Positions 15,689 to 34,531 of a DNA stretch of 64,000 bases are shown piece after piece. Positions within the stretch are counted from its first letter, which is position 1. The number at the start of each line of letters is the position of its first letter. Source of the DNA: Maribacter vaceletii (GTDB lineage Bacteria; Bacteroidota; Bacteroidia; Flavobacteriales; Flavobacteriaceae); the NCBI RefSeq assembly GCF_003634105.1, contig NZ_RBIQ01000007.1, forward strand, positions 248,001-312,000, given 5' to 3'. Under the pieces are notes generated by a model that searched no databases, had not been told where the DNA came from, and saw nothing but the letters and a program-made list of their open reading frames with translations. The position numbers and the translations under genes were made by a program.

Positions 15689-15691
15689 AAA

Positions 15692-16042: not shown

Positions 16043-17185
16043 TCAGGTATTGTAATGAAAAGCAATTTTTGCTAATTGCCCCACAATTTTTACAGAATCT
16101 TTCATAGATAGTTTAGAACCATCTGCATGCACCCATCTTTTTAAAGGTTGTTCACATATAAGACTTTGCACATTTTTCTTTCCATAATGTTTACGCATAC
16201 GCATAAATATTTCCACATCAAAAAGCCATCTTGTAATAAACTTCTTAGAAAACATATTTTCTACAATGTCTTTATCCATGATTTTAGCACCACATTGGGT
16301 ATCATTAAATGGCATTCCAAGTATAGTTCTTATAATAAGATTAATAGTCATACTAATAATCTTCCTTGCAGATTCTTTTGTAATATTTGCTCCCATTCTA
16401 CTCATTCTGGAACCGCTAACAATTTTAAAATTAGACCCTTGAAGCGTTTTTACCAAATCATCAAAATCTCTAAAATCTGTAGACAAATCTGCATCTAAAT
16501 ATCCTATATAATCTAACTGTTCGTCTTTTGCTAAGTGTAAAACCCCTTGCCTAACTGCTTCGGCTTTACCACCATTTTTTTCGCAATCATATATACTAAT
16601 CGTATCTTCATTTCCTTTTCTAAGCTCTTGTAAAACCTCTAAAGTTTTATCTGTACTACCATCATTTACAAAACATAAATGGTATCCTAAATTACGATGA
16701 GCAAAATCTCTAAACTCTACTCCAGATAAACGCTCTTCTTCGTTATAACATGGTATAACAACACCAACACAGTATTCCTGTAACATTCTAGAAGAAGTTT
16801 CTTCCGTGTTTTTAACAGAAGTTTTATTATCTCCCAAAATACGTTTAACACGAGCTGCAACCTCATTTAAACTCACTGGTTTTTTCATGTAATCATCTAT
16901 TCCTAGATCAAAACCATCCATAATTACATTCTCATCTGTATTACCAGACATAACCATTATTGGAGTATCAGATTTTTTTTCTACTCTAATATGTTTAACC
17001 ACTTCTAATCCAGACATGTCTGGCATATTAATATCTACTATTACTAAATCTGGTTTAAAAGATTCAAACAAAACTTTACCATCATTACCACAATTAGCTG
17101 TTTTAATATCATACCCTAACTCTACTAATCTCTTCTCCAGAGATAATAGTATTAGTTGTTGGTCATCAATAGCGAGGATTCTCAT
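16043..17185 (-). CDS. Response-regulator receiver fused to a GT2 (Alg5/DPM1-like) glycosyltransferase
   Basis: 380 residues in two domains. Residues 1-118 are a canonical CheY-like receiver: acidic pair Asp7/Asp8, phospho-acceptor Asp51, switch Ser80 and Lys102-Pro103 are all present. Residues 138-375 are a GT-A glycosyltransferase of family 2: GVVIPCYNEEERL, FVNDGSTDKT, the metal-binding DAD in YLDADLSTD, then SGSR and the CGAKIM region. It resembles dolichyl/polyprenyl-phosphate sugar synthases. There are no transmembrane helices. It diverges from the GT-C-like gene at 17439 by 253 bp. Phosphorylation probably tunes sugar transfer. The fusion is directly seen; the regulation is inferred. 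Confidence 0.9.
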   Translation of the reverse strand: MRILAIDDQQLILLSLEKRLVELGYDIKTANCGNDGKVLFESFKPDLVIVDINMPDMSGLEVVKHIRVEKKSDTPIMVMSGNTDENVIMDGFDLGIDDYMKKPVSLNEVAARVKRILGDNKTSVKNTEETSSRMLQEYCVGVVIPCYNEEERLSGVEFRDFAHRNLGYHLCFVNDGSTDKTLEVLQELRKGNEDTISIYDCEKNGGKAEAVRQGVLHLAKDEQLDYIGYLDADLSTDFRDFDDLVKTLQGSNFKIVSGSRMSRMGANITKESARKIISMTINLIIRTILGMPFNDTQCGAKIMDKDIVENMFSKKFITRWLFDVEIFMRMRKHYGKKNVQSLICEQPLKRWVHADGSKLSMKDSVKIVGQLAKIAFHYNT

Positions 17186-17438
17186 AAATACATTTTTAAG
17201 TTTATAACATGATCCTTTTTAAGGTTCTTGTTTAATAAGTTTGGGTTTTTAAAAAAAATTGTACTTTACAAAAGAGCCTCACTCTAAAAAAATATTTTCT
17301 AATTCTCTAAAATATAGAGTAATATACTCAATTTGTAAGTAATTTCTTTCATAAAACGCAAGTTATTCATCTTTTATTGTAATGTACATCTCATAAATTT
17401 ATTTATATCTTTATACAGAATTGGATTTTTAATAGCTT

Positions 17439-20400
17439 TTGAAGAAAAAAACGAACACTCTCTTAATTTTAGCCCTTATAGTTGGGCTTGCCTTTCATGG
17501 TTCTGCTATTTTCTTTACTTTAGAATACACCTATGATGCTTTAATCCATCTTTTCTTTGCAGACCATTACGCAGATAGCTGGTTTGACCCATGGGAATAC
17601 CGATGGTATACTGGCTTTACGGTTCAATCTTACCCTCCTTTAGTACATCAACTCATTGGAATACTCTCTTATATTGGCGGCTTAAAATTTGGAATGTATA
17701 CTGTGGCATTAATTGCAATTGTATTATTCATTACAGGAGCTTATAGGTACACTTTATTAATGACGGGTAGTAGAAGAATTGCAGGCTATGGTGCTGTTTT
17801 GGCCGTTTTCTCCTCTACGTTTGTAGAAACGTTACATATTTTTGGACAATTACCCAGTGTATCTGCCCTTTCCATTTTGCTGCATTCCATGACAGAAATA
17901 TACCTGTATATTAAAACTGGCAAAACACGTTATTTTATTACATCGGCAACTATGCTTGCCGTGACGGTTACATCGCATCATGTAACCCCGCTATTTGGTA
18001 TGGTATTTTTTATAGCTCCATTAATGGGAATGACCGTAATGGATGCTGCTAGAGAAAAGGTAGATTCTTATAAAAAACTTTCTTTTAAAGTATTCTGGAA
18101 AACCACATTACAACACTTTTGGCGCATAGCAAAGTTTGGTGGCACTGCCATATTTTTATTGGTTTTTTGTATTTTTCCTTATTGGTACAACTCTAAAAGA
18201 AATCCAATTACCCAAGTAGCTATTCCGCATGGCTCAAGAGACAACTTTTTAGAAATAACTTCCTCTGGATTAGTTTTCTTTTTAATACCCTGGGGTGTTT
18301 TTTTATTTATTCTACCCTATTTTTTCTATAGGTATTTTAGTAAAAGGTATCTTTTCTTTGGATTATCTTTTACATTATTAACAATTTTAGGAACTGGAGG
18401 CACTACGCCTGTTCCACGTTTAATGTTAGGCGAAATGGCCTTTAATATACTTACATTAGATAGGTTTACATTATGGGCTACCATTATGGCTCTTCCCATT
18501 TTTGCAGAGTTTGCATACCGCATGGTAGAAGGAGATTTAAAAACCTTAGTACAAGAAAAATTTGGAGGTGTTTATCACAGAGTCTTAGGTGGGTTAATAG
18601 CTGGCGGAATGTTGTTCATGGTACTATTCACTATGACATTAGGCTACTTTAGGCCATCCCAACCTGCTAAAATTAAAATGCTACCTATTGTAAACTTTCT
18701 TGGAGCAGATTCCCATGATGCGTGGCGTTATTTACCATTAGGCTTTGGAGACCAAATGGCATGGCTTTCTGCACAAACTGGTGCTATGACTGTAGATGGT
18801 AATTACCACTCTGCTCGTAGATTACCAGAACTTACAACAAGAGCTATAGAGCGTATAGAAAACTCCAAATTTAGAGGTGTAGAAGGTATTGGATCCTTGC
18901 AGCAATTTTTAACCGTACCCGAAAAATATAATCTAAAATATATTTTCTCTAATGATAAATTCTATGACCCAATTCTATACTATTGTGGTTGGCAACGCTT
19001 GCAACAATTAGAAAATGGCATTATGGTTTGGGAAAAACTAAATGTAGCTCCCATACCGCAAATTATGCCCAAACAAGATGTACCCACTATAATGAAAATT
19101 ATGTGGGGCATAATACCGCTTTCTACGGTATTAATAGCAATATTTGTTAATATTCAAATGATATGGGTACGCTTATTAAAGTCTAGAAAAATAGAAGAAC
19201 ATTCTTTTATGAAACTAGAACTCCCTTATAATAAATTTCCACCTAAACTTTTAACATTTTCTCATTGGTGGTCCCTACTTATTTTAATATGTATAGGATA
19301 CGGTATGTATATATTTTATATTAAAAACGTTACACAATTATCCCCCAACAATGTTGTAGAATCTTATTATGATGCTTTAGATTTTAAAGAATTTTCTAGA
19401 GCACATTCCTATATTGATCCTGAGGATAATATTGATATTGCGCAATACATGCTAGAAGTTTCTGTAACCGATGGTATTTTAAGCTCCTATGCTAAATTAG
19501 ATTCTTTGGGTATAGAAATTTATGATAAAACAGAAAACAGCGCAAAAGCAAAAGTTGCAACAAGATGGATTACCCCCTTAGAAAATGTATTTAACAATGA
19601 CTTTCACGAACTAATAAAAAGAAAAAATAAATGGTATATAAAGTCTATAAAAGTTGATAATGATATTCCACCAGACCAACTTTTTACAGCTAATGGCACT
19701 ACCTTTTATAACCATGGCAGAAGAAAAATAACCACCCAAGAAACGTATCATGAAGATGTATTAAAACAGCCTGTATTAGAAATATTAGCAGCAAAATTGG
19801 TGAAGTATAAAGGGCAGTATAGTATTATAGGAGAACTTCAGAATGTGGATAACACCCCTGCAGATATAGTTCTTAAAGCCACACTTTATAATGATAACAA
19901 TAAAGAACTAGCAAATTATAATGCCAAACATCAAATTAAACATAAGTTAATGCCCAAGGAAACAACAACCTTTAAAATAAACTTTGAAGGTATTGCATGG
20001 TCTTCTACCAAAGATACCTTGCCGCCAACTTTTAACCCAGACGAGTTTACACCGGTTAGTTTTGAGGAACAACCCACTAAATTTAACTTACAATCTGCCG
20101 GGAACACTGCAAATACAGATTTATATAAACATGTAGCGCTACAAGATTTAGAATATACAGACCAGGGTTTTAATGGCGTACTTTTTAATTCTGGCGTACA
20201 GGAAGTTACAATTCCGCAGTTAATAATTTCTTATTATGATGAGAATGAAGAATTACTTTGGGTAGATCATAAATTTATAAAGGAAGGAGTTCGTATTCAA
20301 AGAAAACAATTTTTTAATTACAAACCTTTAGAGCTAGATAGTCTCCAAGTAATAAACAGTAGTTTAAAAAACTGTTTTGTAAATGGTTTACCAAACGAAG

Positions 20401-20528
20401 CTATTTCTGAAAAAATATTTCCAAATAGAAAAAAAGACCATGGTGTAAGACAAACCCAACCCTTTAAAGGAAAAGGTTATGAATATCTAAAGTTCGAGAT
20501 TAACAGTTATATAGGTAATCCCAAGTAG
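17439..20528 (+). CDS. Large GT-C-like membrane glycosyltransferase with periplasmic C-terminal domains
   Basis: 1029 residues. About 13 transmembrane helices occupy residues 8-625. The first periplasmic loop carries acidic/His residues (TYDALIHLF with Asp33, then DSWFDPW), as in GT-C enzymes and the related PTPS_related membrane family. These use polyprenyl-phosphate sugars. Residues 630-735 look like an NTF2-like fold (NVVESYYDALDFKEFSRAHSYID) and about 790-860 resembles an FxLYD-type beta domain. Start is TTG at 17439-17441, just after an in-frame TAG; TATCTTTA about 30 bp upstream could be the -7 element. The next gene begins 1 nt after its stop. Enzyme activity is inferred, not proven. 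Confidence 0.7.
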   Translation: MKKKTNTLLILALIVGLAFHGSAIFFTLEYTYDALIHLFFADHYADSWFDPWEYRWYTGFTVQSYPPLVHQLIGILSYIGGLKFGMYTVALIAIVLFITGAYRYTLLMTGSRRIAGYGAVLAVFSSTFVETLHIFGQLPSVSALSILLHSMTEIYLYIKTGKTRYFITSATMLAVTVTSHHVTPLFGMVFFIAPLMGMTVMDAAREKVDSYKKLSFKVFWKTTLQHFWRIAKFGGTAIFLLVFCIFPYWYNSKRNPITQVAIPHGSRDNFLEITSSGLVFFLIPWGVFLFILPYFFYRYFSKRYLFFGLSFTLLTILGTGGTTPVPRLMLGEMAFNILTLDRFTLWATIMALPIFAEFAYRMVEGDLKTLVQEKFGGVYHRVLGGLIAGGMLFMVLFTMTLGYFRPSQPAKIKMLPIVNFLGADSHDAWRYLPLGFGDQMAWLSAQTGAMTVDGNYHSARRLPELTTRAIERIENSKFRGVEGIGSLQQFLTVPEKYNLKYIFSNDKFYDPILYYCGWQRLQQLENGIMVWEKLNVAPIPQIMPKQDVPTIMKIMWGIIPLSTVLIAIFVNIQMIWVRLLKSRKIEEHSFMKLELPYNKFPPKLLTFSHWWSLLILICIGYGMYIFYIKNVTQLSPNNVVESYYDALDFKEFSRAHSYIDPEDNIDIAQYMLEVSVTDGILSSYAKLDSLGIEIYDKTENSAKAKVATRWITPLENVFNNDFHELIKRKNKWYIKSIKVDNDIPPDQLFTANGTTFYNHGRRKITTQETYHEDVLKQPVLEILAAKLVKYKGQYSIIGELQNVDNTPADIVLKATLYNDNNKELANYNAKHQIKHKLMPKETTTFKINFEGIAWSSTKDTLPPTFNPDEFTPVSFEEQPTKFNLQSAGNTANTDLYKHVALQDLEYTDQGFNGVLFNSGVQEVTIPQLIISYYDENEELLWVDHKFIKEGVRIQRKQFFNYKPLELDSLQVINSSLKNCFVNGLPNEAISEKIFPNRKKDHGVRQTQPFKGKGYEYLKFEINSYIGNPK

Positions 20529-20529
20529 T

Positions 20530-21768
20530 ATGTATTTTAGGATAAGTATCATTTTTTGTCTAATTATAGCGGGTTGCTCTTCTAAAAAAGAACAACAACC
20601 CAAACAAAAAACTACACCTAAAATAGAACTAGTGTCTAAAAAAAATAGTTTTGTTGCTGGCGATTCTATAGCACTTCTTTTTAAAATAAAAACGACTGAG
20701 GATAGTGTAAAACTGCAAGTTAAAAATGCCTATGGCAACACACTTTTATCTCCCATAAAAAAAGAGAATAACCAAATACTATTTACTTTACCAAAAAACT
20801 ATACAAGATTAGCTGGCCCATGCCGATGGAAAATTATACACGAAAACAAAACCATACTACATGGTAAATTACATATAGAAACTAACGAACCTAAAGCTAC
20901 CTATATAGAATCTTACTTTGGACCACGAAGTGTTACCGCAGGGTATAATGATTATTCTATGCTAACAATTTCTCCAACCGATTATTTTGACAACCCCTTA
21001 AATGATGGTACAGAGGTTACCGTTAAATATCAATTTTTAGAAAACATAACAGAACTACAAATTACTACGCAAAACTTTTTTGCATTTTATAATGTACGAT
21101 CTACCTTAAAATCTGGAAGAATTTTAGTAACCTCAGAATGTAATGCAACTACTTCTAAAGAACTTGCTACTATCGTTTACCCCTCTAATGCAACAAACTT
21201 TTCTATAAGTGCTTCTAGTGCTCATAACTACGCAGATGGTAATCAAATACTAACTTTTACATCAAACATTATTAAAGATGAATTTGGGAATACAGTTAGC
21301 AATGGAACCTTGGTAACCTTTGTTATTAAAAACGAAAAAGATGCCCACTTATACACTATAGGAACTACACTAAATGGTGTAGTAGAAGCCAAAACATTAC
21401 ACCCTGATAAAGCTACAAATTGGGAAGTACAAGCATTTATAACAGGTGCCGCAGAAAGTAATACTATAGCTTATAATTTTAAATCTGCTATTAAAGACTT
21501 TCCAGTCCATTTTTCTAAAGGAAATAGGAATATAGATATTGGACCGTTTGAGAGTTTTATGAAACAACTAGTCCCAGATGGTATTCTTTTGAGATTAGAT
21601 ATTCATGATAAAGACGGAAATTTTATAGAAACCAAAAAAACCACCACTAAAAATGGGGTTTGTATTATTTTTTTAGGAGAACACTTTTTACCTGAAGGAG
21701 ATTATATTTTAAAACTAAAAGCCGCAGGAATATCTAAAGAATTTAAAAAAAATATCCATGGCAATTAA
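20530..21768 (+). CDS. Lipoprotein with Ig-like beta domains
   Basis: 412 residues with a signal peptide and lipobox (IIAGCSS, Cys16). The remainder is beta-rich and contains at least two Ig/invasin-like repeats. One runs about 125-225 (SVTAGYNDYSMLTISPTDYFDNPLNDGTEV) and one about 228-320 (ADGNQILTFTSNIIKDEFGNTVSNGTLV); both have the adhesin big-domain pattern of D-x-x-GN-x-V-x-(D/N)GT. It is probably attached to the periplasmic or outer-membrane face. It lies between the GT-C-like gene (1-nt gap) and the GH5-like gene (11-nt overlap), so translation is probably coupled. A structural role in polysaccharide assembly or adhesion is inference. Confidence 0.8.
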   Translation: MYFRISIIFCLIIAGCSSKKEQQPKQKTTPKIELVSKKNSFVAGDSIALLFKIKTTEDSVKLQVKNAYGNTLLSPIKKENNQILFTLPKNYTRLAGPCRWKIIHENKTILHGKLHIETNEPKATYIESYFGPRSVTAGYNDYSMLTISPTDYFDNPLNDGTEVTVKYQFLENITELQITTQNFFAFYNVRSTLKSGRILVTSECNATTSKELATIVYPSNATNFSISASSAHNYADGNQILTFTSNIIKDEFGNTVSNGTLVTFVIKNEKDAHLYTIGTTLNGVVEAKTLHPDKATNWEVQAFITGAAESNTIAYNFKSAIKDFPVHFSKGNRNIDIGPFESFMKQLVPDGILLRLDIHDKDGNFIETKKTTTKNGVCIIFLGEHFLPEGDYILKLKAAGISKEFKKNIHGN

Positions 21769-23296
21769 ACTAAATAAAGCCTTATACAGAACTGTGCTTA
21801 TAGCCACTTTCATTGCTATAAATGCCCTTATAATATCAGGGATAGGGGCTGCCTGGGTATTTATGAATACTGGAGCAGACAAAACCTCTATGCTTCACTT
21901 AGAAGTGCCTATGGAAGATGTTTATAAACCAAACATGGAATGGGTTAATTTAGATAATCCAGGAAGGCCAATGGAAAAACAAGCGTTAGGTGAAATAACT
22001 AATGATTATATGAATGCTTGGCATGTTCGCAATATAGCTTATAAAAAAAATGACCGCTATGGTATTGAAGATTTTTATACCGATAGTGCTAGAGTTCGTT
22101 TATATGATCATATAGATTTAAACCTTAAAAACAATAACTGGTATAAGAGAACAACCTTAAACCACACATCTTCTTTAGATTTTTATACTGCAGACGGCAC
22201 CATGGTAGTTTTTAAGGATTATAATGTAGAAGAATACCAAGAAACTTATGAAGGAGAAAAACTTTTATTTAAAGAAAAAGATACTACAAGCTACCAAGTA
22301 ATGATGCTATTAGAAGATGGTTTTTGGCGCATAAGACATTTAAAAGAAATACCCACCCCAAAAGACACTACTAAAATAGAGTTACGAAACATTCAAGGAA
22401 AATTAAAAAAAATAGAGAATATAAAAGGGATAAATTACTACCCCAAAGATTCTTCTTGGGATACTTTTGGGAAGCGATTTAACGACAGTATTATTAAAAA
22501 TGATTTAAAAATAATACAGCGTATGGGACTAAATACGCTAAGAATTTTTATACAATATGAAGATTTTGGAAAAAATAGAGTTAACCCAAAAAAATTAGCA
22601 TTACTAAAAAAGGTTTTAGATTTAGCAGAAGAAACTAATTTAGAGGTTTTAATTACTCTTTTTGATTTTTATGGCGACTATGATGTGTCTAACTGGACTT
22701 TAACACATAGGCATGCAGAGCAAATTGTTAAAGCTGTAAAAGACCATCCTGCTTTACTTGCATGGGATATAAAAAATGAACCCGATTTAGATTTTGAATC
22801 TCGTGGAAAAGAACGGGTTTTAGGCTGGCTGGAACAAATGGTAGAGAATATAAAAAAATGGGATAAAAATCATCCGGTTACTATAGGGTGGTCTTCTCCT
22901 GAAGCTGGAATAGAGCTAGCCAATACTGTAGATTTTGTTTCTTTTCATTACTATAGAGAACCTAGTAAGTTTATACAAGCGTATAATGTATTAAAAGGAA
23001 AAATACCTACAAAGCCAAAACTCTTACAAGAATACGGTATGTCTTCTTATAAAGGATTATGGAATTTTTATAGAGGGGCAGACGAAGAGGGGCAACTTGC
23101 ATATTACAATGAAATGCAAAACATTCTTAAACAAGAAAACGTACCATATATGTTCTGGACACTCTATGATTTTAAGAATGTCCCTAGTTCTGTTGCAGGT
23201 AGCTTGCCATGGAAATCTAAAAAACAACATTTTTTTGGTTGCTTAGACTCTTTAGGCAATAAAAAACCAGCTTTTAAAGCCTTATCTATAAAGTAA
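21758..23296 (+). CDS. Membrane-anchored GH5-like glycoside hydrolase with NTF2-like domain
   Basis: 512 residues. One N-terminal transmembrane helix (11-37) places the rest in the periplasm. Residues 75-200 form an alpha/beta domain of NTF2-like appearance (GEITNDYMNAWHVRNIAY). Residues 222-505 are a TIM barrel of clan GH-A, GH5-like, with acid/base Glu341 in DIKNEP and the nucleophile candidate Glu425 in LLQEYG. The position of the pair on strands 4 and 7 is right for retaining enzymes. Synthase-dependent polysaccharide systems commonly carry such a hydrolase (BcsZ, PelA), so trimming or editing of the polymer is the likely job. The start overlaps the lipoprotein gene by 11 nt. Confidence 0.85.
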   Translation: MAIKLNKALYRTVLIATFIAINALIISGIGAAWVFMNTGADKTSMLHLEVPMEDVYKPNMEWVNLDNPGRPMEKQALGEITNDYMNAWHVRNIAYKKNDRYGIEDFYTDSARVRLYDHIDLNLKNNNWYKRTTLNHTSSLDFYTADGTMVVFKDYNVEEYQETYEGEKLLFKEKDTTSYQVMMLLEDGFWRIRHLKEIPTPKDTTKIELRNIQGKLKKIENIKGINYYPKDSSWDTFGKRFNDSIIKNDLKIIQRMGLNTLRIFIQYEDFGKNRVNPKKLALLKKVLDLAEETNLEVLITLFDFYGDYDVSNWTLTHRHAEQIVKAVKDHPALLAWDIKNEPDLDFESRGKERVLGWLEQMVENIKKWDKNHPVTIGWSSPEAGIELANTVDFVSFHYYREPSKFIQAYNVLKGKIPTKPKLLQEYGMSSYKGLWNFYRGADEEGQLAYYNEMQNILKQENVPYMFWTLYDFKNVPSSVAGSLPWKSKKQHFFGCLDSLGNKKPAFKALSIK

Positions 23297-23300
23297 ACTA

Positions 23301-23400
23301 CCTCGGTGGAAGCCCACGAGGCATTTATTAAGTAACTAATTTCGATTTCGAGACAAGCCTCGGAGCATTTAAATACTCGATTATTGAGTAAAAAGTATTT
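23301..23400. repeat. Structured non-coding intergenic element
   Basis: Between the GH5-like and GT4 stops lie several inverted arms: CCTCG...CGAGG near 23301-23322, and TTTAAATAC...GTATTTAAA (9 bp each) around 23370-23402 enclosing ACTC...GAGT. It resembles a recurring intergenic type I recall from other flavobacteria. There is no second copy in this window. Confidence 0.35.
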
Positions 23401-23406
23401 AAACAC

Positions 23407-23441: not shown

Positions 23442-23467
23442 CAACTAACCTAAACGAACTCTATTTT

Positions 23468-25955: not shown

Positions 25956-26244
25956 TGCTTAAAATATAATGCGTTTTAGTATTTTTCATAATAGAAGCTA
26001 TTTTCTTGTTTTGCCTACCTATTATAGATATAATCTTATTTTTTTCAACAGCACCTTTATATAATTTTTCTAACATATAAGCACCACTTTTGTCAATAGC
26101 GCCTACCTTTTCTATATTAAGAGTAATACTTTCAGATATTGGAATTATAGATTCAAAATAATTTTTTAAAGATGTCATATTCTGAGAAGAGATATTTCCC
26201 AAAATTTCAAACATTCCACTATTCTCTTTAATTTCTATTGCCAT
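25942..26244 (-). CDS. STAS-domain protein (anti-sigma-factor-antagonist-like)
   Basis: A 100-residue single STAS domain. The switch motif AIDKSGAYML (50-58) has Asp51 and Ser53 in the positions of the Asp-Ser pair that is phosphorylated in SpoIIAA-type antagonists. No RsbW-like kinase or PP2C phosphatase is visible in the window, so its partner is unknown; it may contact the membrane transporter translated with it. It is the first gene of the STAS-PST-GT4 operon and its stop overlaps the PST start by 14 nt. Confidence 0.8.
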   Translation of the reverse strand: MAIEIKENSGMFEILGNISSQNMTSLKNYFESIIPISESITLNIEKVGAIDKSGAYMLEKLYKGAVEKNKIISIIGRQNKKIASIMKNTKTHYILSNDRV

Positions 26245-26600: not shown

Positions 26601-28673
26601 ATGCAAAAATATACTGTCCTCCTATTTCTATTTATATCCCTTATTATAAGGTCTCAAGAAGATATGAGCAAAGGATTTAAGTTTCTAGAAAACGGAAATT
26701 TTGAAAATGCAGAGTCTTTTTTCAAAGATATTTTAGAAAATAATCCTACAAATAAAACAGCAAGATTATGTTATGGTAGAGCAGTTGGTTTAAGTGGAGA
26801 ACCAAAAAAAGCAAATGCTTTATTTTCAGATTTACTTAAAGAGTACCCTGGAGATTTTGAAGTAGAAATTAATTACAACGAATCTTATTTATGGTCTAAA
26901 GATTATGAATCTGCCAAACCTTTATACAAAAAATTAGTTGCCGACTTTCCGGATAAGTTTGGTGCTGTTTTAGGATACGCTAATACTTTAAGTAATCTTA
27001 AAGAATATAAATTAGCTCTAGAATGGGTAGATAAAGCTATATCGTTAGACCCTAAAAACCAAAGTGCATTAGTTTCTAAAAAGTATATGCGTTTAGGCTA
27101 TGCAAATGAATTTGTTAATAACCAACAATACGCAAAAGGAGAAACATACTTAAAAAGTATTTTTAAAGACTTTCCAGAAGATAAAGATGCCTTAAAAAAT
27201 TTAGCAAATCTTTATCTAATTACTAAAAGTGTAGATAAAGCGAAAAGAACCTATAAAAGATATGCTACTAATTCTAAAGACTCTATAGTTGCACTAAATG
27301 GCATTGCCCTTGCAGAACATATTGGAGAACAAGATAAAGAGGCATTAAATATTGCTTCTAAGGCAAAAAAAGCTGTATTACAATTAAAAGACACAGAGTT
27401 AACAGAACGCACTTATAATAGATATATACAAGCTTTAATATGGAACCAAAAATATAAAAAAGCTAGATTAAAAATAGATAGTCTTAACAAGGCAACACCA
27501 AATAGAAATTGGATTATGGCTCTTGATGCTACTTTAGGCATGTACACCGCAAACTTTAAAAAAAGCATTAACAATTATGATAGAATACTTAAAAACGACA
27601 GTGCTTCTTTTGATGGAAATTTAGGAAAAGCAAATGCCTTATTTGCATCTGACAAAATTATACCTGCTTATAAAGCAGCTAAACAAACTTTAGTTTATTA
27701 TAAAAAACAAAAAGATGCTTCTAATTTTATTGAAAAATTAGATTTAAAATATACCCCTAGTGTAGAAGAGCATGCAAGCTATACTTTTGACAATGGCAAT
27801 AATACCGCATATTCTAGTAAAACTTCGGCAAATCTAGCATTATCCACAAAATTTGCTTCGTTCTTTTCTTATCAATTTAGAACAACAGAAAATACGTTAA
27901 ACCTAAATAAAGCTACTTCTCATGTAATGACAGCTGGCTTGGAATATAAACTTATTCCAAAAACTAATCTTAAAGCCTTAATTGGTATAAACAAGTCTAT
28001 ATCTATAGACACAGATTTTTCACAACCTGTTTTAGATATTAGGTTACAAACACAACCATTTATTTTACAAAACTTAGACTTTATTTACACAAGAGAAGTA
28101 CAGAGTTTTAATGCCGACCTTATTGAAAGAGAAATTGTTATGAACCATTATGGCTTAACCTATAATTTAGGAACTACTTTTAATTTAGGATGGTACACAC
28201 AACTTATGTACACAGAACAAACAGATAGTAACACAAGAAATTTATTATTTAGTTCTTTATATTATAATCTATTTAAAAAACCTGCTGTAAAAGTTGGTGT
28301 TAACTACCAGTACTTAAGTTTTGCCAACCAAGTGCCTACTATATACTTTAGCCCATCTATTTACCAAGCGGTAGAATTATTCGCAGATATTAGAGGAAAG
28401 TTCTCAGAAAAAACAACAGCTATGATTAGTGCTGCTTCTGGATACCAGAAAGTAGAAAAAGACCCAATGACTGTAATTTTTAGAGCAGAAACTGGGATAC
28501 AACATGAGTTCTCTAAGAGACTTAACGGTTCCGTATATGGTAAGTACAGTAATATAGCTTCTGCAACCGCAGCAGGATTTCAGTTTACAGAGATAGGATT
28601 AAAAATAAAATGGTTGTTTACTAAAAAGCCATTATTTTACAATAAGTTACAAAAGCAAATAGCGTTAAAGTAA
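26601..28673 (+). CDS. TPR plus outer-membrane beta-barrel exporter (BcsC/PelB/PgaA-like)
   Basis: 690 residues. A signal peptide (1-18) is followed by about nine TPR-like helix pairs (20-380), for example GFKFLENGNFENAESFFKD and PLYKKLVADFPDKFGAVLGYA. Residues 390-690 form a beta-barrel with alternating aromatic strands (FASFFSYQFRTTENTL, FNLGWYTQLMYTEQT), ending near TEIGLKIKWLF. This TPR-then-barrel layout is that of synthase-dependent polysaccharide exporters BcsC, PgaA and PelB, though smaller. It diverges from the STAS-PST-GT4 operon and converges with the LytTR gene (13-bp gap). Confidence 0.82.
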   Translation: MQKYTVLLFLFISLIIRSQEDMSKGFKFLENGNFENAESFFKDILENNPTNKTARLCYGRAVGLSGEPKKANALFSDLLKEYPGDFEVEINYNESYLWSKDYESAKPLYKKLVADFPDKFGAVLGYANTLSNLKEYKLALEWVDKAISLDPKNQSALVSKKYMRLGYANEFVNNQQYAKGETYLKSIFKDFPEDKDALKNLANLYLITKSVDKAKRTYKRYATNSKDSIVALNGIALAEHIGEQDKEALNIASKAKKAVLQLKDTELTERTYNRYIQALIWNQKYKKARLKIDSLNKATPNRNWIMALDATLGMYTANFKKSINNYDRILKNDSASFDGNLGKANALFASDKIIPAYKAAKQTLVYYKKQKDASNFIEKLDLKYTPSVEEHASYTFDNGNNTAYSSKTSANLALSTKFASFFSYQFRTTENTLNLNKATSHVMTAGLEYKLIPKTNLKALIGINKSISIDTDFSQPVLDIRLQTQPFILQNLDFIYTREVQSFNADLIEREIVMNHYGLTYNLGTTFNLGWYTQLMYTEQTDSNTRNLLFSSLYYNLFKKPAVKVGVNYQYLSFANQVPTIYFSPSIYQAVELFADIRGKFSEKTTAMISAASGYQKVEKDPMTVIFRAETGIQHEFSKRLNGSVYGKYSNIASATAAGFQFTEIGLKIKWLFTKKPLFYNKLQKQIALK

Positions 28674-28686
28674 CGCTACAATCTTA

Positions 28687-29403
28687 TTACTTTAAAAGAT
28701 TTAAATGCTGCATAAGTTTAGGCTTATTAGACCTGCTAATTGGAATAACGTTTTTGTCTATTAACACACTATTATCTTCTATATCTATAATCTTAGTAAA
28801 GTTTATTATATAGGAACGGTGTATTTGCAAGAAAATATCGGTAGGTAATTTTTCTTTTATTTTCTTTAAAGTATTGTGTACTTTATATTCGGTATTTTCT
28901 GTTTTTATATTAATATAATCTCCTAAAGCTTGTATTACAAGTATCTCATTGAACTTTAATTTAATTAAGCGATGGTCTATATTTATATATAACTCCCCTA
29001 AACCTAGAGAATTATTAGCACTAGAAGCACTTTCTATAATTGCTTGGTTTTGTATTGCCGTTTTTACTTTAGTAACGCATTTAATAAAACGTTCTTTAGT
29101 AAGGGGTTTTACCAAATAATCTACAATGGCTTCGTACTCATAAGCCTGTAGTGCTAAATCTTTATCCGATGTTATTAAAACTATTTTGGGGGGTTTTTTT
29201 AAAGTCTCTACAAAATCAAAACCAGTAAACCCTGGCATATGTATATCTAAAAAAACAACATCTACTTCTTGTTTATTTAAGAACTTTATTGCGTCTATTG
29301 CATTAGAAAAGTCCTCCTCTACAGATATTTCGGGGGAATCTTCACAAAATTTAGCGACCACTGCTCTAGCGGTTGCCTCATCATCTACAATAATGCATTT
29401 CAT
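28687..29403 (-). CDS. LytTR-family response regulator
   Basis: 238 residues. The receiver (1-120) has Asp7/Asp8, phospho-acceptor Asp53 (FLDIHMPG), Thr/Ser in ITSDKD (about 79) and Lys-Pro in VDYLVKPL (98-99). The LytTR DNA-binding domain (about 135-236) contains ALGDYINIKT and QIHRSYIINFTKI, both diagnostic. It is the last gene of the sensor operon, 1 nt after the Hpt gene, and is the most likely transcriptional output. LytTR sites are direct repeats, so the palindrome at 26355 need not be its site. Targets are not shown by the sequence. Confidence 0.95.
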   Translation of the reverse strand: MKCIIVDDEATARAVVAKFCEDSPEISVEEDFSNAIDAIKFLNKQEVDVVFLDIHMPGFTGFDFVETLKKPPKIVLITSDKDLALQAYEYEAIVDYLVKPLTKERFIKCVTKVKTAIQNQAIIESASSANNSLGLGELYINIDHRLIKLKFNEILVIQALGDYINIKTENTEYKVHNTLKKIKEKLPTDIFLQIHRSYIINFTKIIDIEDNSVLIDKNVIPISRSNKPKLMQHLNLLK

Positions 29404-29404
29404 A

Positions 29405-29728
29405 TTAAATATTTAAAATATAATTTTCTATGGTAATTAGTATCTTTAAAAAATCATCCTTAAGCTTACTATTTCCAAATTTTAGTTGTTCTTCAAAACC
29501 AACTGCTAAACGATACCCTTTTTGCAAGCCTAAGATATTAAATTTATGTTTTAGTTTATGAACTATTTCTGCTGTAGCATTATAATCTTCTTTTGCTAAA
29601 CAATCTATATACGTTTGTTTTTCTACTGGGAATTCGCTTTTTATTATTCCTAAAAATTTTTGCTCAAAGGATTGGTCTCCGCCGGCTAATTCTTTTACGT
29701 AATTTAAATTTGGTTGCTCTTCACTCAT
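29405..29728 (-). CDS. Histidine phosphotransfer (Hpt) protein
   Basis: A 107-residue four-helix Hpt domain. The phospho-accepting His57 lies in AEIVHKLKHKFNILGL, the HxLKx motif of the family, at the usual position in helix 2. It stands alone rather than fused to a kinase, so it can shuttle phosphate between separate receivers, such as the CheY-like protein at 34127, the LytTR regulator and perhaps the receiver-GT2 fusion at 16043. The spacing is 4 bp from the upstream kinase gene and 1 bp from the LytTR gene. Confidence 0.88.
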   Translation of the reverse strand: MSEEQPNLNYVKELAGGDQSFEQKFLGIIKSEFPVEKQTYIDCLAKEDYNATAEIVHKLKHKFNILGLQKGYRLAVGFEEQLKFGNSKLKDDFLKILITIENYILNI

Positions 29729-29732
29729 AATT

Positions 29733-30782
29733 TTATTTTTTTATTGTAAAATAAAAAGTAGTTCCATTTCCTAATTGGGACTCTAGCCATATTTCTCCTT
29801 CATAAATATTAATTATCTTTTTAACTAAAGCTAACCCAATACCTGTTGCATTTGCATTATTTTCCAATTTTTTAAACATATTAAATATGCTTTCTTGGTA
29901 TTTTTCTGGTATTCCTTTTCCGTTATCTTTAATACTAAATTTCCAATATTCTTTTTTCTCTATGGATTCTACTATTATTTTTCCTTCTTTAACATCTTCT
30001 GTTGCTGTAACCGCGTTTGTTATTAGATTTTTAAATAACTGTTCTAATTTATATTTATCCTTAAATAAAACAGGTAATTCTCCCTCTACTATAAGTTCTA
30101 TATTTTGAGGTATATAAATCGTATTTTTTATCTCCTTTAATAAATGAGCTATAGAAATATTAGTTTTTTCCTCTTCATGTGCTTCTAAAGTTGCATGCCT
30201 TAATATACCATCTATTAAATTGTCTACTTTTGTTAGGTTTTGAATAACTAAAGAGCAATTGAATTTACTTTCCTCCGAAAAATTTTCTTTTTCTTCTTCA
30301 GATATCCAACTCATTAAAGTGTGCATATTTCTTATTGGCGACTTTAAATCATGAGAAACCATATGTGCATAATTATTTAAAGACTCATTTTGTTCTTCTA
30401 AATCTTTTAGTAACTCTTTTCTTTCTGCTGTTAAATCAATAATTTTATCCGTTTGTTCCTCTATACTTGCTGCTATTTTTAATGGATCTATATGTTCTTC
30501 TTCATAATTTACAGCATCTATAGAATCATCATCCATTACTTTTACAACTTTACTCAAAGAAATAAATATATTTTTTTGAGCTTCTATTTTTTCCCTTAGT
30601 TCTGCATTTACCATAGAAAGTTCTTTAGAACTAATCGTAGTAGATCTTTGTATCATTTCTAACTTTTCATCGTTATTATAATACGATTTACTTATGGCCA
30701 ATAAAAACTCCTCCATTTCTGGTGAGCCCTCTAAATTATCGGGTAAAAATTTTCTTATTTGTCTTTTTAGTAAAGAGTGCAT
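29733..30782 (-). CDS. Cytoplasmic histidine kinase
   Basis: 349 residues with no transmembrane segment. A helical N-terminal region with long coiled-coil (40-135) is followed by the HisKA box with His144 in AHMVSHDLKSPI. The HATPase domain has N box FKNLITNAV (about 240), G1 IKDNGKGIPE and G2 GIGLALVKKI. There is no receiver, so phosphate must leave to a separate protein. The ATG overlaps the stop of the FIST gene (TAATG), meaning coupled translation. Together these suggest FIST delivers its signal to this kinase. Confidence 0.93.
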   Translation of the reverse strand: MHSLLKRQIRKFLPDNLEGSPEMEEFLLAISKSYYNNDEKLEMIQRSTTISSKELSMVNAELREKIEAQKNIFISLSKVVKVMDDDSIDAVNYEEEHIDPLKIAASIEEQTDKIIDLTAERKELLKDLEEQNESLNNYAHMVSHDLKSPIRNMHTLMSWISEEEKENFSEESKFNCSLVIQNLTKVDNLIDGILRHATLEAHEEEKTNISIAHLLKEIKNTIYIPQNIELIVEGELPVLFKDKYKLEQLFKNLITNAVTATEDVKEGKIIVESIEKKEYWKFSIKDNGKGIPEKYQESIFNMFKKLENNANATGIGLALVKKIINIYEGEIWLESQLGNGTTFYFTIKK

Positions 30783-31915
30783 TATTCACTTATAAGGGTT
30801 AATGTCATGGTTTGGTTATGCAATTTACATTTTTCTTGCCCCGCAAAAGGTGCCATTTCTCCATAAGAGTAAAAACCAGCTACTTTTGCTTGTTCTCCAA
30901 TAACATCTATTACCTCTTCCACTTCTTCTTCCGTTCTTTGGTCCATTACAAGTTTTCTGCCCACACAACTAACTAAAAGACCTAATTCTGGCTGTTTTTT
31001 TCTATCTCTCATAGCAAAATTTGCTGCTGTAAAAGCACCTTCCGCAATATCATCTACGGTTGCCATCATTAATTGTACTGTAGATCCCACTGGTACGTCT
31101 CCTGCCAGTATCATGCTATTATCCTCTTCACTTATGTTTAAAATAGTACGTACTATTGTTTCTTTTTCTCCTGGCACTTTTACACTAAGCGGATAAAGTA
31201 ATGCTGCCTCTGGTAATTCTTTTACTTTATCACCTAAATATTTTTTATATAAATCTAGAGCTGGTTGCCCATCTAATTCGTATAATATATTATCTACAGA
31301 TTTTGTAATTATTCTTTCTGGACCAAAGCCTGTCCAGCCACCATAATTTGCACAACTAACCTCTAGCGTTTCTCCATAAAGCCCTATTACAACAACCTCA
31401 CCTTGTTCGGGATTTTTATTATATGCTGCTAAAGTTTTTTCAAACCTAGAATCATCGCCACAAAGTCCGCCAGAAATATTTATATTTTTATCTAAATTCT
31501 TTTCCAATCCTAAAATTAAAGTGCTTCCATTTACGGAGCTACCTTCCGATACTACAAAGACGTGTTTAAGGCCTTCTTGGGGTAATGTTTTTAAAAGCTC
31601 TGCTCCTAATTCCTCAGTATTATCTTTATAATTTTTACTATTAGCACTTGTTATTCTAAACGTACTTTTTTCAAATTCTATAGCAGTTAAACAAATACTA
31701 TGATCTATTACTTTACCCCCTAAAATCTCGCCAGAAGTAGAACCAAATACAATCTCGCCATCTGGAAAAAGTGTTTTAATTTCTTCATAAATATGCCTAT
31801 TTTCTAATAAAAATCTATTACCAAAAACTAATACTAAAGGTTTAGTTAATTGTTCATTATTACCTAAAAAACGCCACTCTTTATTATCTTCCTTAATTGC
31901 TTGTTGTATTTTCAT
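30782..31915 (-). CDS. FIST-domain sensor protein (FIST_N plus FIST_C)
   Basis: 377 residues: FIST N (about 25-215, including GSTSGEI, ISGGLCGDD) and FIST C (about 220-365, including PALDLYKKYLG and GFYSYGEMAP). FIST domains are predicted ligand sensors, often for amino acids or redox signals, and usually sit in signal-transduction proteins. This one is a free-standing cytoplasmic protein. Start ATG at 31913-31915; it overlaps the PAS-kinase gene by 23 nt and shares TAATG with the next kinase gene. The natural ligand is unknown. Confidence 0.92.
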   Translation of the reverse strand: MKIQQAIKEDNKEWRFLGNNEQLTKPLVLVFGNRFLLENRHIYEEIKTLFPDGEIVFGSTSGEILGGKVIDHSICLTAIEFEKSTFRITSANSKNYKDNTEELGAELLKTLPQEGLKHVFVVSEGSSVNGSTLILGLEKNLDKNINISGGLCGDDSRFEKTLAAYNKNPEQGEVVVIGLYGETLEVSCANYGGWTGFGPERIITKSVDNILYELDGQPALDLYKKYLGDKVKELPEAALLYPLSVKVPGEKETIVRTILNISEEDNSMILAGDVPVGSTVQLMMATVDDIAEGAFTAANFAMRDRKKQPELGLLVSCVGRKLVMDQRTEEEVEEVIDVIGEQAKVAGFYSYGEMAPFAGQEKCKLHNQTMTLTLISE

Positions 31916-33506
31916 CTTGTTTTTTTAAGGTGAAGAAAAAGGTAGTGCCAACTCCTATTTCGCTTTCTAACCAAACTTTTCCTTCGTATAAATCTATAAT
32001 CTTTTTAACGATAGAAAGTCCTATTCCTGTAGACCTTTCTTTATTCCCTATAGATTGAAATATTTTAAATATTTTTTCGTGATATTCTTTAGGAATACCA
32101 ACACCATTATCTTTTACACTAAATTCCCAATGGGTGTCCCGATCCTCACAGCCAACTTCTACTAAACCTTTTTCACGTTCTATATGTACAACTGCATTAC
32201 TTAAAAAGTTTTGTATTAATTGATGAATTTTAGTGCGATCTGCATAAATTGTTGGTAATTTGTTTGCTGTTTTTACCGTTACATGATCTGGAATAAAAAT
32301 TATATCCTTTATCTCTTGTACTACCTCATTTACATCTACAATAGAGTTGTCTAAATTATCACTCTTTATGGTAGAATATTTTAAAATTCCATCTATAAGT
32401 TTGTCCATAGACTCTACCTTATCTTGCATCATTTTTAGATTATAAACACCATTTTCATCTAACTTGTCTTTATAATCTTCATACATCCAAGTGGTGAGTG
32501 CACTAATACTTCGTAAAGGGGATTTTAAATCATGAGAAACTATATGTGCATATTCTTGCAATCCTTTATTACTAGATTCTAAATCTTTTACTAACTGTTT
32601 TTTTTCTTCTTCTAGCGCAATTTCTTGGGTTATATCTTCTATTAAAGCTACTTCATATTTTAGTTCTCCCTTATTGTTCCTTACAGCATTTACAGATGTT
32701 TTAGCAGAAAAAGAAGTGCCATCTTTACGCAAATACTTTTTTACTACCGAAAAGTCGTCTATTTCTCCATTAAACATTTTTTGCCTATAGTCCTTAGAAG
32801 CTTGCAAAGATTCTAAAGATGTAATATCCATTGGATTAATAGTTTGCAACTCTTCTTCTGTATAACCAAGCATTTTCTGCATGGTAGCATTAACTTTTAC
32901 TAATGCATCATTAGCCGTTAACCATATACCTAAAGGAGAATGTTCTACAATTATATCTAAACGTTGTCTTTGTAAATCTAAAAGATTTTTCATTTCTAAT
33001 TCCGAGGTAACGTCTCTAAATACACCTTGCGCCCCACTTACATTTCCTTTTTTATCTTTTATTAAACTACCATTTACTTCAATAAATTTTAATTCATTAT
33101 GTTTTGTTATTATTCCTGGTCTAAATTTTCTAATTAATCCAGTTGTGTATAGCGATTTAAAAGAGGCTTTAGAATATTCTTTATAATTTGGATGAATAAG
33201 TTCTGTAAGTTTTACATTATCATCCTTGGTAAATCCTAAAAATTCTTCGGCAGCACCATTCATTTTTATAATTTTACCTCCTAAATCCATTATTAGATAA
33301 GGGTCAATAATGTTTACAAAAACATTATCTATCTCTGCTGTCTTTTGATCTAAAAGATTTTCTAAAATTTTGTTAGTCTCTTTTAAATGTAAACTAGCAT
33401 CATATAATTCTTTAGACTTCTCTTCTAAAATTCTTTCTGCTTGTTGCCTAGCTTTCTTTTGACGTTCTAAGGCTTTTTTAAGTAATGTAACTTCCTTATT
33501 ATCCAT
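31893..33506 (-). CDS. PAS-PAS histidine kinase
   Basis: 537 residues from the ATG at 33504-33506. An upstream TTG at 33519-33521 would add five residues, but the ATG gives a better N-terminus and a smaller overlap. A coiled-coil (5-58) leads into two PAS domains (about 60-165 and 180-295), then HisKA with His325 in AHIVSHDLKSPL and a HATPase with FLSNAVVHI, VKDNGVGIPK and STGIGLSIVKKI. No membrane segment and no fused receiver, so it is a soluble donor to separate receivers. It overlaps the H-NOX gene by 8 nt, the pairing seen in known H-NOX/kinase systems. Confidence 0.94.
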   Translation of the reverse strand: MDNKEVTLLKKALERQKKARQQAERILEEKSKELYDASLHLKETNKILENLLDQKTAEIDNVFVNIIDPYLIMDLGGKIIKMNGAAEEFLGFTKDDNVKLTELIHPNYKEYSKASFKSLYTTGLIRKFRPGIITKHNELKFIEVNGSLIKDKKGNVSGAQGVFRDVTSELEMKNLLDLQRQRLDIIVEHSPLGIWLTANDALVKVNATMQKMLGYTEEELQTINPMDITSLESLQASKDYRQKMFNGEIDDFSVVKKYLRKDGTSFSAKTSVNAVRNNKGELKYEVALIEDITQEIALEEEKKQLVKDLESSNKGLQEYAHIVSHDLKSPLRSISALTTWMYEDYKDKLDENGVYNLKMMQDKVESMDKLIDGILKYSTIKSDNLDNSIVDVNEVVQEIKDIIFIPDHVTVKTANKLPTIYADRTKIHQLIQNFLSNAVVHIEREKGLVEVGCEDRDTHWEFSVKDNGVGIPKEYHEKIFKIFQSIGNKERSTGIGLSIVKKIIDLYEGKVWLESEIGVGTTFFFTLKKQDENTTSN

Positions 33507-34041
33507 TTTGCACAATATCAAATTTAACTTCAGTACCGTCCTCTTTAATAAGTGTGTATTTTACTTTTGCTGTAGTATTAAAATGCTCAAAAGTTTTTTC
33601 TATTAAACCATGCGCTAATCTATATAACCCTCTTGAAGAACCATATATTAAGGATATAGAATTTTGTGTAGTTTCTAAGATTTTAAAAGTAGGCAATTCT
33701 GCCTCTGGATATAATTTTTTCACATGCACATGAATATGGTCTTCTATAGCATAAATAAGACCTAAAGGAGATTTGTAATTTTCTACAACCTCAGGATGTG
33801 CAGTTACTAAACTATTAAATAAGAAAAGGCCAAAGGCATAGATTAAATCATCTACGGGGGCTTTAACCTCTGTACTAAGGTTTGTAATTAAACTTAGCAT
33901 CTCATTAAAATCATACGTACCTATAGAGGTATAGATACCTTCTGAAGGTAAATTTGAATTTTCAATAATGGAATCAACGACTTCTAAGCCAAATTCTAAC
34001 TCCACCATTTCTAAAAATTCAGTAAAAACAATTCCTTTCAT
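33499..34041 (-). CDS. H-NOX (HNOB) haem-based gas sensor
   Basis: 180-residue stand-alone H-NOX protein that should bind haem b and sense nitric oxide (or CO/O2). The proximal His104 is in EDHIHVHVKKLYP and the porphyrin-propionate motif YxSxR is Tyr133-Ser135-Arg137 (YGSSR); both are intact. The distal pocket lacks an obvious Tyr, so NO rather than O2 is the likely ligand. It is directly followed by the PAS histidine kinase with an 8-nt overlap, the classic H-NOX/HK arrangement. TACATTTA about 35 bp upstream is a possible -7 element. Confidence 0.93.
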   Translation of the reverse strand: MKGIVFTEFLEMVELEFGLEVVDSIIENSNLPSEGIYTSIGTYDFNEMLSLITNLSTEVKAPVDDLIYAFGLFLFNSLVTAHPEVVENYKSPLGLIYAIEDHIHVHVKKLYPEAELPTFKILETTQNSISLIYGSSRGLYRLAHGLIEKTFEHFNTTAKVKYTLIKEDGTEVKFDIVQNG

Positions 34042-34126
34042 TCTAAAAAATATATAAAATTTCTTGAATAAATGTAGGAATTATACTTCTTTTTTTAAAA
34101 ATATTGTTGTGAAACGTAGTTTTTTG

Positions 34127-34531
34127 TTAGGCTTTAACTAACTCATTATTATCCCAATATGTAAAAACACTTTCCAATTTTTTCTCGTAATCCTCATATT
34201 TTAAGGGCTTTATAACATAACCAGCAATACCAATACGATAACATTCTAACAAATCTGCTCTATTTTCAGATGTTGTAAGAACAATTGTAGGAAGATATTT
34301 TAAAACAGGATCTGCCTTTAATATTTCTAAGAATTCTATGCCACTCATTTTAGGCATATTTAAGTCTAAAAGAATAATATCTGGCAAGACCTCATCAGAC
34401 TTTAAGAAGTCAAGTCCTTCTTCACCGTTTTTAGCTTCCGTAATTTTGTGCTTTAATTGTAACTTAGAAACTGTTCTATTAAGTTTCATTGTTTCAATAG
34501 CATCGTCTTCAATAAATAGTACATTTAACAT
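34127..34531 (-). CDS. Stand-alone CheY-like response regulator
   Basis: 134 residues forming one receiver: Asp9/Asp10, phospho-acceptor Asp56 in LLDLNMPKM, Thr in VLTTSENR (about 87) and Lys-Pro at about 109. The sequence is of the Rcp1 type that often works with phytochrome or H-NOX histidine kinases in phosphorelays. It is 85 bp upstream of the H-NOX gene and probably heads the operon, though a separate promoter could lie in the gap. With no output domain it would pass phosphate to Hpt or act as a competing sink. Confidence 0.93.
   Translation of the reverse strand: MLNVLFIEDDAIETMKLNRTVSKLQLKHKITEAKNGEEGLDFLKSDEVLPDIILLDLNMPKMSGIEFLEILKADPVLKYLPTIVLTTSENRADLLECYRIGIAGYVIKPLKYEDYEKKLESVFTYWDNNELVKA

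Follow-up and report, generated by a model that had tools for sequence, protein, structure and literature searches.

We describe a locus at positions 16043–34531 of a 64,000-nucleotide stretch of the Maribacter vaceletii genome (the window; contig NZ_RBIQ01000007.1, positions 248,001 to 312,000; G000:C1:248001-312000; genome size 3.89 Mb), in which genes for a putative exopolysaccharide machine stand beside an operon encoding an H-NOX sensor and the parts of a multistep phosphorelay. All 15 open reading frames (ORFs, called mechanically) listed in a preliminary description of this DNA are present on the strands and at the positions given there. Most of the domains it named score above the curated Pfam cut-offs, as do the Pfam families named below unless a lower score is given; its Hpt domain and its "GT-C-like" protein fall below theirs.

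In the biosynthetic half, REC-GT2 (16043–17185, minus strand) joins a receiver (residues ~1–115; REC, PF00072) to a family 2 glycosyltransferase (GT2; residues ~140–380; Glycos_transf_2, PF00535). The transferase half has ArnC, sll0501/GtrB, and dolichol-phosphate-mannose synthase (DPMS) as sequence relatives (E 4e-9), and the AlphaFold2 model of the protein (mean pLDDT 82.1, pTM 0.71) retrieves the same three enzymes with Foldseek, ArnC chains taking ranks 1–4. As modeled, the GT2 of the window has the ArnC/GtrB/DPMS polyprenyl-phosphate glycosyltransferase fold, and its sugar transfer is putative; enzymes of this class make polyprenyl-phosphate-sugars. In the alignment of REC-GT2 copies, D7, D51, S80, and K102 of the receiver are found in 81 of 81 sequences and D8 in 80 of 81. 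The next gene (17439–20528, plus strand) encodes a large GT-C-like membrane protein whose match to PTPS_related (PF10131) is weak, at 19.8 bits against a cut-off of 26.4 (E 3e-4). We take PTPS_related to belong with the GT-C enzymes, which use polyprenyl-phosphate-sugar donors, and the gene adjoins GT2 in most syntenic relatives. A putative lipoprotein follows (20530–21768, plus strand; lipobox recognized by eye, weak Invasin_D3 match below the cut-off), which holds the same position in syntenic loci at 33–43% identity.

The hydrolase (21758–23296, plus strand) is a clan-A glycoside hydrolase with a GH2/GH158/GH5-type barrel. Its best Pfam family is Glyco_hydro_2_C (PF02836) and its best PDB match is a GH158 enzyme, followed by GH5 mannanases, so the clan-A TIM barrel of the protein first called "GH5-like" stands and the label itself is loose. 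A GT4 glycosyltransferase (23468–24673, minus strand; Glycos_transf_1, PF00534, and PF13692), a PST/Polysacc_synt_3 flippase-like protein (24705–25955, minus strand; PF13440), and a STAS-domain protein (25942–26244, minus strand; PF01740) precede a TPR protein (26601–28673, plus strand; TPRs by Pfam), whose AlphaFold2 model (mean pLDDT 86.9) contains 22 helices followed by 16 C-terminal strands. Among the best 50 Foldseek matches of this model, BcsC occupies ranks 1, 2, and 31, PelB of the PelBC complex rank 8, and 4y25, a "polysaccharide outer membrane secretin" that we take to be PgaA, rank 16 (TM 0.78 on the target); most of the others are TPR proteins. The model has the TPR domain and 16-stranded β-barrel of the BcsC/PelB/PgaA exporters, which makes the protein a putative outer-membrane polysaccharide exporter (TPR-barrel).

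The signaling half is read entirely from the minus strand. Its first gene encodes a stand-alone CheY-like receiver (34127–34531; CheY-type REC, PF00072), followed by the H-NOX sensor (33499–34041), the PAS-PAS-HisKA-HATPase_c kinase presumed to be its partner (PAS-HK, 31893–33521), a NosP-related FIST_N/FIST_C protein (30782–31915), a NosK-like histidine kinase without a recognized sensor domain (HK2, 29733–30782; HATPase_c-type domains only in Pfam), the Hpt phosphotransfer protein (29405–29728), and a LytTR response regulator (28687–29403; PF04397 with REC, PF00072). The overlaps between reading frames reported earlier are there: HK2 and FIST share 1 nt, and FIST and PAS-HK, like PAS-HK and H-NOX, share 23 nt, the last with the listed TTG start. 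In relatives, the kinase start aligns by eye with an ATG further into the listed frame, which is probably the true start, so this last overlap is probably shorter.

The HNOB domain of H-NOX (PF07700) scores 128.4 bits against a curated cut-off of 25.5. H102, Y133, S135, and R137, which we take to be the proximal histidine and the YxSxR heme motif, respectively, are each kept in at least 93% of 44 sequences, and the closest PDB structures, 6bde and 6bdd, are presumably those of the H-NOX from Kordia algicida. The Hpt match (PF01627) reaches 19.4 bits against a cut-off of 24.6, with H57 kept in at least 93% of 40 sequences, and the LytTR DNA-binding domain scores 72.4 bits. The FIST protein carries both FIST_N and FIST_C (FIST and FIST_C in Pfam) and is encoded beside a sensor-less kinase, two features expected of NosP; against the NCBIfam NosP equivalog it scores 67.1 bits, the cut-off being 450, so we call it NosP-like and not NosP. 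A PDB search with the FIST protein alone returned nothing at E ≤ 0.01 among 177635 sequences. As a probable relative of the nitric oxide (NO) sensor NosP, it need not stand for a separate kind of signal.

Linkage of the signaling and polysaccharide genes

The co-occurrence of the two gene sets, whose separation in most relatives the preliminary description had named as the mark of a chance linkage, was examined in a family sample of 120 genomes, one per genus, searched for REC-GT2, HNOB, FIST, and the TPR-barrel; the collection also holds 8 genomes of the window's genus. The TPR-barrel is present in 27 of the 120 genomes, H-NOX in 46, and both in 24, such that H-NOX occurs in 24 of the 27 TPR-barrel genomes versus 22 of the 93 others (Fisher 1e-9, a value that overstates independence, as these genomes are related). 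The two genes share a contig, at most 21.5 kb apart, in 22 of these 24 genomes; they are 2.28 Mb apart in G100 and on separate contigs in G002. These counts reject a chance neighborhood. The TPR-barrel genomes that lack H-NOX are G005, G048, and G062 (90%, 82%, and 84% complete). REC-GT2 itself is found at 63% identity or more in 24 of the 120 genomes (the copies of G106 and G062 are cut by contig ends), and more distant full-length copies are present in G113 (43%) and G117 (39%). For the first 20 REC-GT2 loci, the signaling genes lie within 20 kb in 16 and were reached on extension in G044 and G072; they were not found around the gene in G100 and G002.

The association was also seen in a phylum sample. 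Of its 395 genomes, REC-GT2 (E ≤ 1e-55) was found in 12 and H-NOX in 27, with H-NOX in all 12 REC-GT2 genomes versus 15 of the 383 others (Fisher 7e-16, again overstated by relatedness). H-NOX lies within 23 kb of REC-GT2 in 9 of the 12 and on a different contig in G214, G380, and G435. G282, from another family of the same class, has nearly the whole locus in order, with no STAS gene recognized and one gene, X1 (described below), added. Named carriers of REC-GT2 include Maribacter, Zobellia, Arenibacter, Kordia, Winogradskyella, Polaribacter, and Flavobacterium, among others. In a metagenome-assembled genome labeled Saprospiraceae, a REC-GT2 of 56% identity (L225, 9989–11134) stands among apparent housekeeping genes (by eye), and no other gene of the locus was recognized in that stretch.

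The order CheY, H-NOX, PAS kinase, (FIST, HK2), Hpt, LytTR recurs both with and without a polysaccharide locus of the window type. Downstream of the operon in G034 come STAS, UDP-glucose dehydrogenase, an epimerase, a lone REC, an initiating transferase in which a receiver-like domain is joined to Bac_transf (type B), OEP, a Wzz-like protein (below the cut-off), and a Wzy_C protein; by clustering, these genes are present up to OEP in G109 too. Type-B transferases (E ≤ 1e-40) occur in 7 of the 120 genomes and lie within 10 kb of H-NOX in five; the gene is unlinked in G117, and G082 has no H-NOX. Pfam recognizes their receiver-like part as a receiver. The phosphoacceptor aspartate is S, E, K, or Q in the 7 distinct aligned copies, and the adjacent lone REC keeps the usual residues. 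We had considered a receiver fused to a transferase as one mechanism for all of these loci and corrected this, the type-B aspartate being lost. In G083, genes for a UDP-glucose dehydrogenase, a TackOD1 protein, and a membrane GT2 adjoin the operon; G090 has the same clusters, and the promoter element described below is present in both. In L065, the TackOD1 protein (6712–8025) stands beside UDP-glucose dehydrogenase and a membrane GT2, next to the H-NOX operon; in the portion of PMC5847659 that treats it, the TackOD1 output domain is described mainly from archaea.

Other variants change the relay itself. In G251 and G274, from another family, the gene after H-NOX encodes HNOBA-PAS-HisKA-HATPase-REC-Hpt in one protein, with a lone REC and an initiating transferase of the Bac_transf kind nearby, and no promoter element of at least 9 bits lies in the stretch. 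The order of domains in this fusion suggests that phosphate passes from kinase to REC to Hpt. In Flavobacterium hydatis and strain CRH (L219 and L238), HNOBA-PAS-HisKA kinases (13863–16811 and 13873–16821; Pfam on L219 only) replace the PAS kinase, and a separate H-NOX gene was not recognized within the stretch. Hpt adjoins REC-GT2 in both, with no LytTR in the stretch fetched. We had considered these two loci as a LytTR-free case for a direct branch to REC-GT2 and dropped them as proof, since the promoter element remains at CheY and LytTR probably acts from elsewhere.

A direct repeat at signaling and polysaccharide promoters

Aligned promoters of relatives contain a repeated TGTAGACGAATGG-like word, which forms a direct repeat with a period of 21 bp upstream of CheY, GT-C/REC-GT2, and the TPR-barrel. 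Known LytTR sites are paired ~9-bp direct repeats ~12 bp apart, as given in parts of PMC6193735 and PMC11347149, and a direct-repeat pair of 21-bp period stands at the operon's own promoter in the window and in relatives. We infer that the repeat is bound by LytTR and refer to it as a putative LytTR operator; its presence at both the signaling and the polysaccharide genes is a new finding of the present analysis. The alignments also show a conserved promoter element near GT-C and the TPR-barrel.

A position weight matrix (PWM) built from 36 of 44 CheY promoters, with the window left out, was used to scan 1.56 Mb of fetched loci. It gave 171 merged sites of at least 9 bits, and Markov shuffles gave ~0.13 per 100 kb. 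ORFs of 130 aa or more make up 87.2% of this DNA, yet none of the 166 distinct sites (the 36 training sites among them) has its center in one (40-bp margin); for 149 of the 166, an ORF starts no more than 200 bp away. Among the 20 relatives with the first REC-GT2 loci (extensions included), 19 carry a site no more than 250 bp from where a polysaccharide gene starts, and 18 carry one at CheY. Of the 81 REC-GT2 copies in the named loci, 40 have a site at a distance of up to 250 bp, and several others have it at GT4 or PST instead. In G100, G002, and G117, polysaccharide genes without linkage to the operon have operators as well.

A sequence-only covariance model made from 54 sites was also applied to all 120 genomes, using the stricter filters of Infernal. 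It made 110 matches at E ≤ 1e-3, and for 90 of them H-NOX or a polysaccharide marker is no more than 25 kb away. A match occurs anywhere in 40 of the 46 H-NOX genomes versus 4 of the 74 without H-NOX, and near the markers in 35 of the 46; G002, G011, G049, G057, and G118 have distant matches only, and six H-NOX genomes have none at this threshold. The four genomes with a match and no H-NOX are G005 and G062, both carriers of the TPR-barrel, together with G115, in which neighboring N-termini look like CheY, kinase, Hpt, and LytTR, and G047. Three matches 238 bp apart, with a fourth ~1.6 kb off, cluster at G071:C1:2367439-2367951, which suggests a repeated promoter region.

The X1 gene, located between the TPR-barrel and LytTR in 12 loci (for example, L033, 13485–16358, and L042, 3652–6282) and absent from the window, encodes a secreted DUF4114 protein that bears a type 9 sorting tail. 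An operator stands at X1 in at least 8 of the 20 relatives (9 counted), and the protein is possibly a matrix protein.

In the window, the operator at 34583–34624 (plus strand; 20.9 bits with the PWM trained without the window) lies 52 bp upstream of CheY and is the top match of both the window and its whole genome. Its two half-sites, of which one is good and the other worn, are spaced 21 bp apart. An operator is present upstream of CheY in 7 of the 7 same-genus loci that hold CheY, the window included. At REC-GT2/GT-C, the same-genus sites score 12.7 (L157), 11.2 (L158), and 7.7 bits (L159), and none is present in the window or in L153–L156; no same-genus locus has one at STAS/TPR-barrel. Control of the polysaccharide units by this operator is thus not visible in the genus. 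The earlier proposal that LytTR controls the polysaccharide genes by transcription is supported at the sequence level by the operators of 19 of the 20 relatives; in the window's own genome, the operator is convincing at the signaling operon only.

Several weaker features lie nearby or elsewhere in this genome. A DUF4407 gene (14588–15688) adjoins REC-GT2 3′ to 3′, as it does in several relatives, and between the two 3′ ends a weak run of three half-sites (5.4 and 3.1 bits) is seen at 15930–15992; L153 and L154 have a different weak site in this gap. On contig C2, a second Hpt-LytTR pair is directly followed by the second- and fourth-best operator matches of the genome. This pair belongs to a kinase (HAMP)-Hpt-LytTR-REC set (2505–6897 of L138, G000:C2:12000-23000; Hpt by position and N-terminus only), a possible source of cross-talk or a possible paralogous circuit.

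Proposed circuit and competing explanations

We consider the locus best explained as a multistep phosphorelay that would respond to NO and control an exopolysaccharide machine by LytTR-dependent transcription and, probably, by the receiver of the GT2, a reading to which we assign a probability of about two in three. H-NOX would act on the PAS kinase, and the NosP-like FIST protein, where present, on the sensor-less HK2, so that the two sensors would set the activity of two related kinases. Phosphate, most likely by way of the CheY-like receiver, would reach Hpt and from there two ends, LytTR and the GT2 receiver. LytTR would bind the 21-bp-period repeat at the signaling promoter and, in most relatives, at the polysaccharide units. 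Control would probably also be exerted through the receiver on the lipid-sugar enzyme REC-GT2, adjusting how much polyprenyl-phosphate-sugar is available to the GT-C-like protein; GT4, the flippase, the hydrolase, and the TPR-barrel would extend, move, trim, and export the chain. By analogy with Vibrio fischeri, NO may lower polysaccharide output.

Several observations weigh against this interpretation. G005, G010, G019, G059, and G076 have a GT2 of 49–52% identity without REC; it adjoins the GT-C gene in G005, G010, and G059, and the stretches of G019 and G076 end before that position. H-NOX is present in 22 of the 93 genomes without the TPR-barrel gene, and around some of these H-NOX operons the DNA fetched shows no recognized polysaccharide gene. 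Not every operon includes FIST and its kinase: FIST lies within 6 kb of H-NOX in 23 of the 46 H-NOX genomes. With regard to the operator, the window has no site of at least 9 bits at REC-GT2/GT-C or STAS/TPR-barrel, G011 (1 of the 20 relatives) has none in its locus, and the second Hpt-LytTR pair beside operator matches means that the box may not be private to the LytTR of the window. Finally, 20 of the 110 whole-genome matches lie elsewhere. Nineteen of these (all but G057:C561) were inspected by the N-termini of their neighbors: those in G115 and G011 lie beside LytTR/CheY-like genes, and the others have no evident link.

The alternative that survives best is a signal other than NO, with H-NOX binding O2 or sensing redox and FIST sensing heme or something else. 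Against it stand the conservation of H102, Y133, S135, and R137, the presumed heme-binding residues, and the nearest solved H-NOX structures, 6bde and 6bdd, presumably from Kordia algicida. In its favor, FIST reaches only 67 of the 450 bits required for NosP, redox sensing by H-NOX is discussed in a section of a review (PMC8738867), and a title in the reference list of PMC12570481 refers to NosP detecting heme. We regard such a signal as unlikely, at something like one chance among several.

Next comes the explanation that the relay works by transcription only, through LytTR, and that the GT2 receiver serves another pathway or the dimerization or placement of the enzyme. The five family genomes with a REC-less GT2 speak for it, above all G059 and G005 (L089 and L091), which have an otherwise same locus with operators at GT-C, GT4, and the TPR-barrel, as do the operators at polysaccharide genes in 19 of the 20 relatives. 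However, the active-site residues of the receiver are conserved across the 81 REC-GT2 sequences, the window retains the receiver yet not the polysaccharide operators, and in two Aquimarina, REC-GT2 and a lone Hpt are neighbors without the other genes, the fetched flanks containing neither LytTR nor an operator. The residue conservation and the Aquimarina pairing are consistent with a putative direct branch, and we judge control by transcription only to be rather improbable.

The converse, limited to the window's genus, holds that LytTR regulates only its own operon and that NO reaches the polysaccharide solely via REC-GT2. It fits the own genome, where the CheY promoter alone is convincing, the same pattern in L153–L156, and the weak REC-GT2 sites in L157–L159. 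Yet diverged operators may escape a PWM built from other genera, and the weak half-site run at 15930–15992 lies 3′ of REC-GT2; we hold this version to be a little less credible still. That the genes are neighbors by history, the H-NOX operon controlling something else (for example, nitrosative stress) and the linkage reflecting shared inheritance or transfer, agrees with H-NOX operons that occur without the polysaccharide locus or with no polysaccharide gene recognized around them (for example, L062 and L064, in partly scanned stretches), and is made very improbable by the operator shared even with unlinked loci, by unrelated polysaccharide genes accompanying the operon, and by the 12 of 12 co-occurrence of REC-GT2 and H-NOX in the phylum sample.

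Returning to the NO-responsive relay with two outputs, we see an even chance that it represents a portable NO-to-glycan cassette of Bacteroidota. Two or three unrelated polysaccharide machines would be joined, in different lineages, to the same H-NOX/(NosP-like)/Hpt/LytTR phosphorelay and its operator. In the two best-resolved ones, a receiver is on or beside the enzyme expected to start the lipid-linked chain, and NO would act on transcription and also on the first committed step itself, no cyclic di-GMP (c-di-GMP) protein being encoded in the locus. Pfam reports no GGDEF, EAL, HD-GYP, or PilZ domain among the 15 locus proteins, and the GGDEF, EAL, or HD-GYP partner of c-di-GMP-type H-NOX systems was thus not found within the locus. 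The control of biofilm polysaccharide by NO has been described mainly from proteobacteria, often via c-di-GMP (PMC8738867, in part). The present locus would be a conserved candidate circuit in marine Bacteroidota and may show how marine flavobacteria time the production of their outer coat. It provides a candidate function for the H-NOX of Bacteroidota and for a widely conserved exopolysaccharide locus, and it defines a candidate DNA operator.

Comparison with known systems

A literature search on REC-GT2 or on H-NOX with polysaccharide in Bacteroidota (open-license papers, titles and abstract openings) turned up no paper on this locus among the matches listed. Receivers fused to glycosyltransferases are known from Methanobacteriaceae, and the fusions described in the relevant part of PMC5847659 are archaeal, carry one or two RECs, and are BcsA-like (PF13641), whereas that of the window is an ArnC/GtrB/DPMS-like GT2. 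The predicted exporter resembles BcsC, PelB, and PgaA in its modeled TPR superhelix and 16-stranded barrel; unlike in those systems, Pfam reports no PilZ, GGDEF, or BcsA-type synthase in the window locus.

In NosP-NosK-NosR of Burkholderia pseudomallei and others, NosK lacks a recognized sensor domain, as passages of PMC12570481 describe. The FIST protein of the window is likewise encoded with a sensor-less kinase. In contrast, its NosP score is far below the cut-off and Pfam finds no c-di-GMP-type output domain in the locus.

In Myxococcus xanthus, the receiver protein EpsW acts on the polysaccharide-initiating enzyme EpsZ, according to the portion of PMC12802240 that covers it. The receiver of the window differs in being fused, and its partner is a GT2 and not a phosphoglycosyl transferase; Pfam reports no Bac_transf in the window locus, and a similar pair is found in the type-B relatives only. 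EpsW-EpsZ is closer to these relatives, with their lone canonical REC beside a transferase with an Asp-less receiver-like domain. After EpsW-EpsZ, the present circuit is possibly the second example in which a receiver acts on a polysaccharide-starting enzyme.

The Syp circuit of V. fischeri is the most instructive parallel. There, HnoX restrains HahK, HahK acts with the Hpt of SypF on SypG, and SypE acts below transcription, on SypA, as set out in sections of PMC12369376. Both systems have an H-NOX encoded with a kinase, and the window locus would share the Hpt step, the polysaccharide output, and the division into one branch through a transcription factor and one below transcription (PMC12369376 and PMC8738867, in part). 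The parts of a Syp-type system, namely H-NOX, histidine kinase, Hpt, transcription factor, and polysaccharide genes, are all present and linked in the window locus. It differs in having LytTR in place of SypG and a GT2-fused receiver in place of SypE/SypA, the outputs being non-homologous, and in its free Hpt, its pair of FIST and sensor-less kinase, and the placing of regulators and polysaccharide genes together. SypA is a STAS protein, and the window locus also encodes one. By this analogy, the locus would resemble the V. fischeri circuit in how it works, with other outputs, without being a member of that family.

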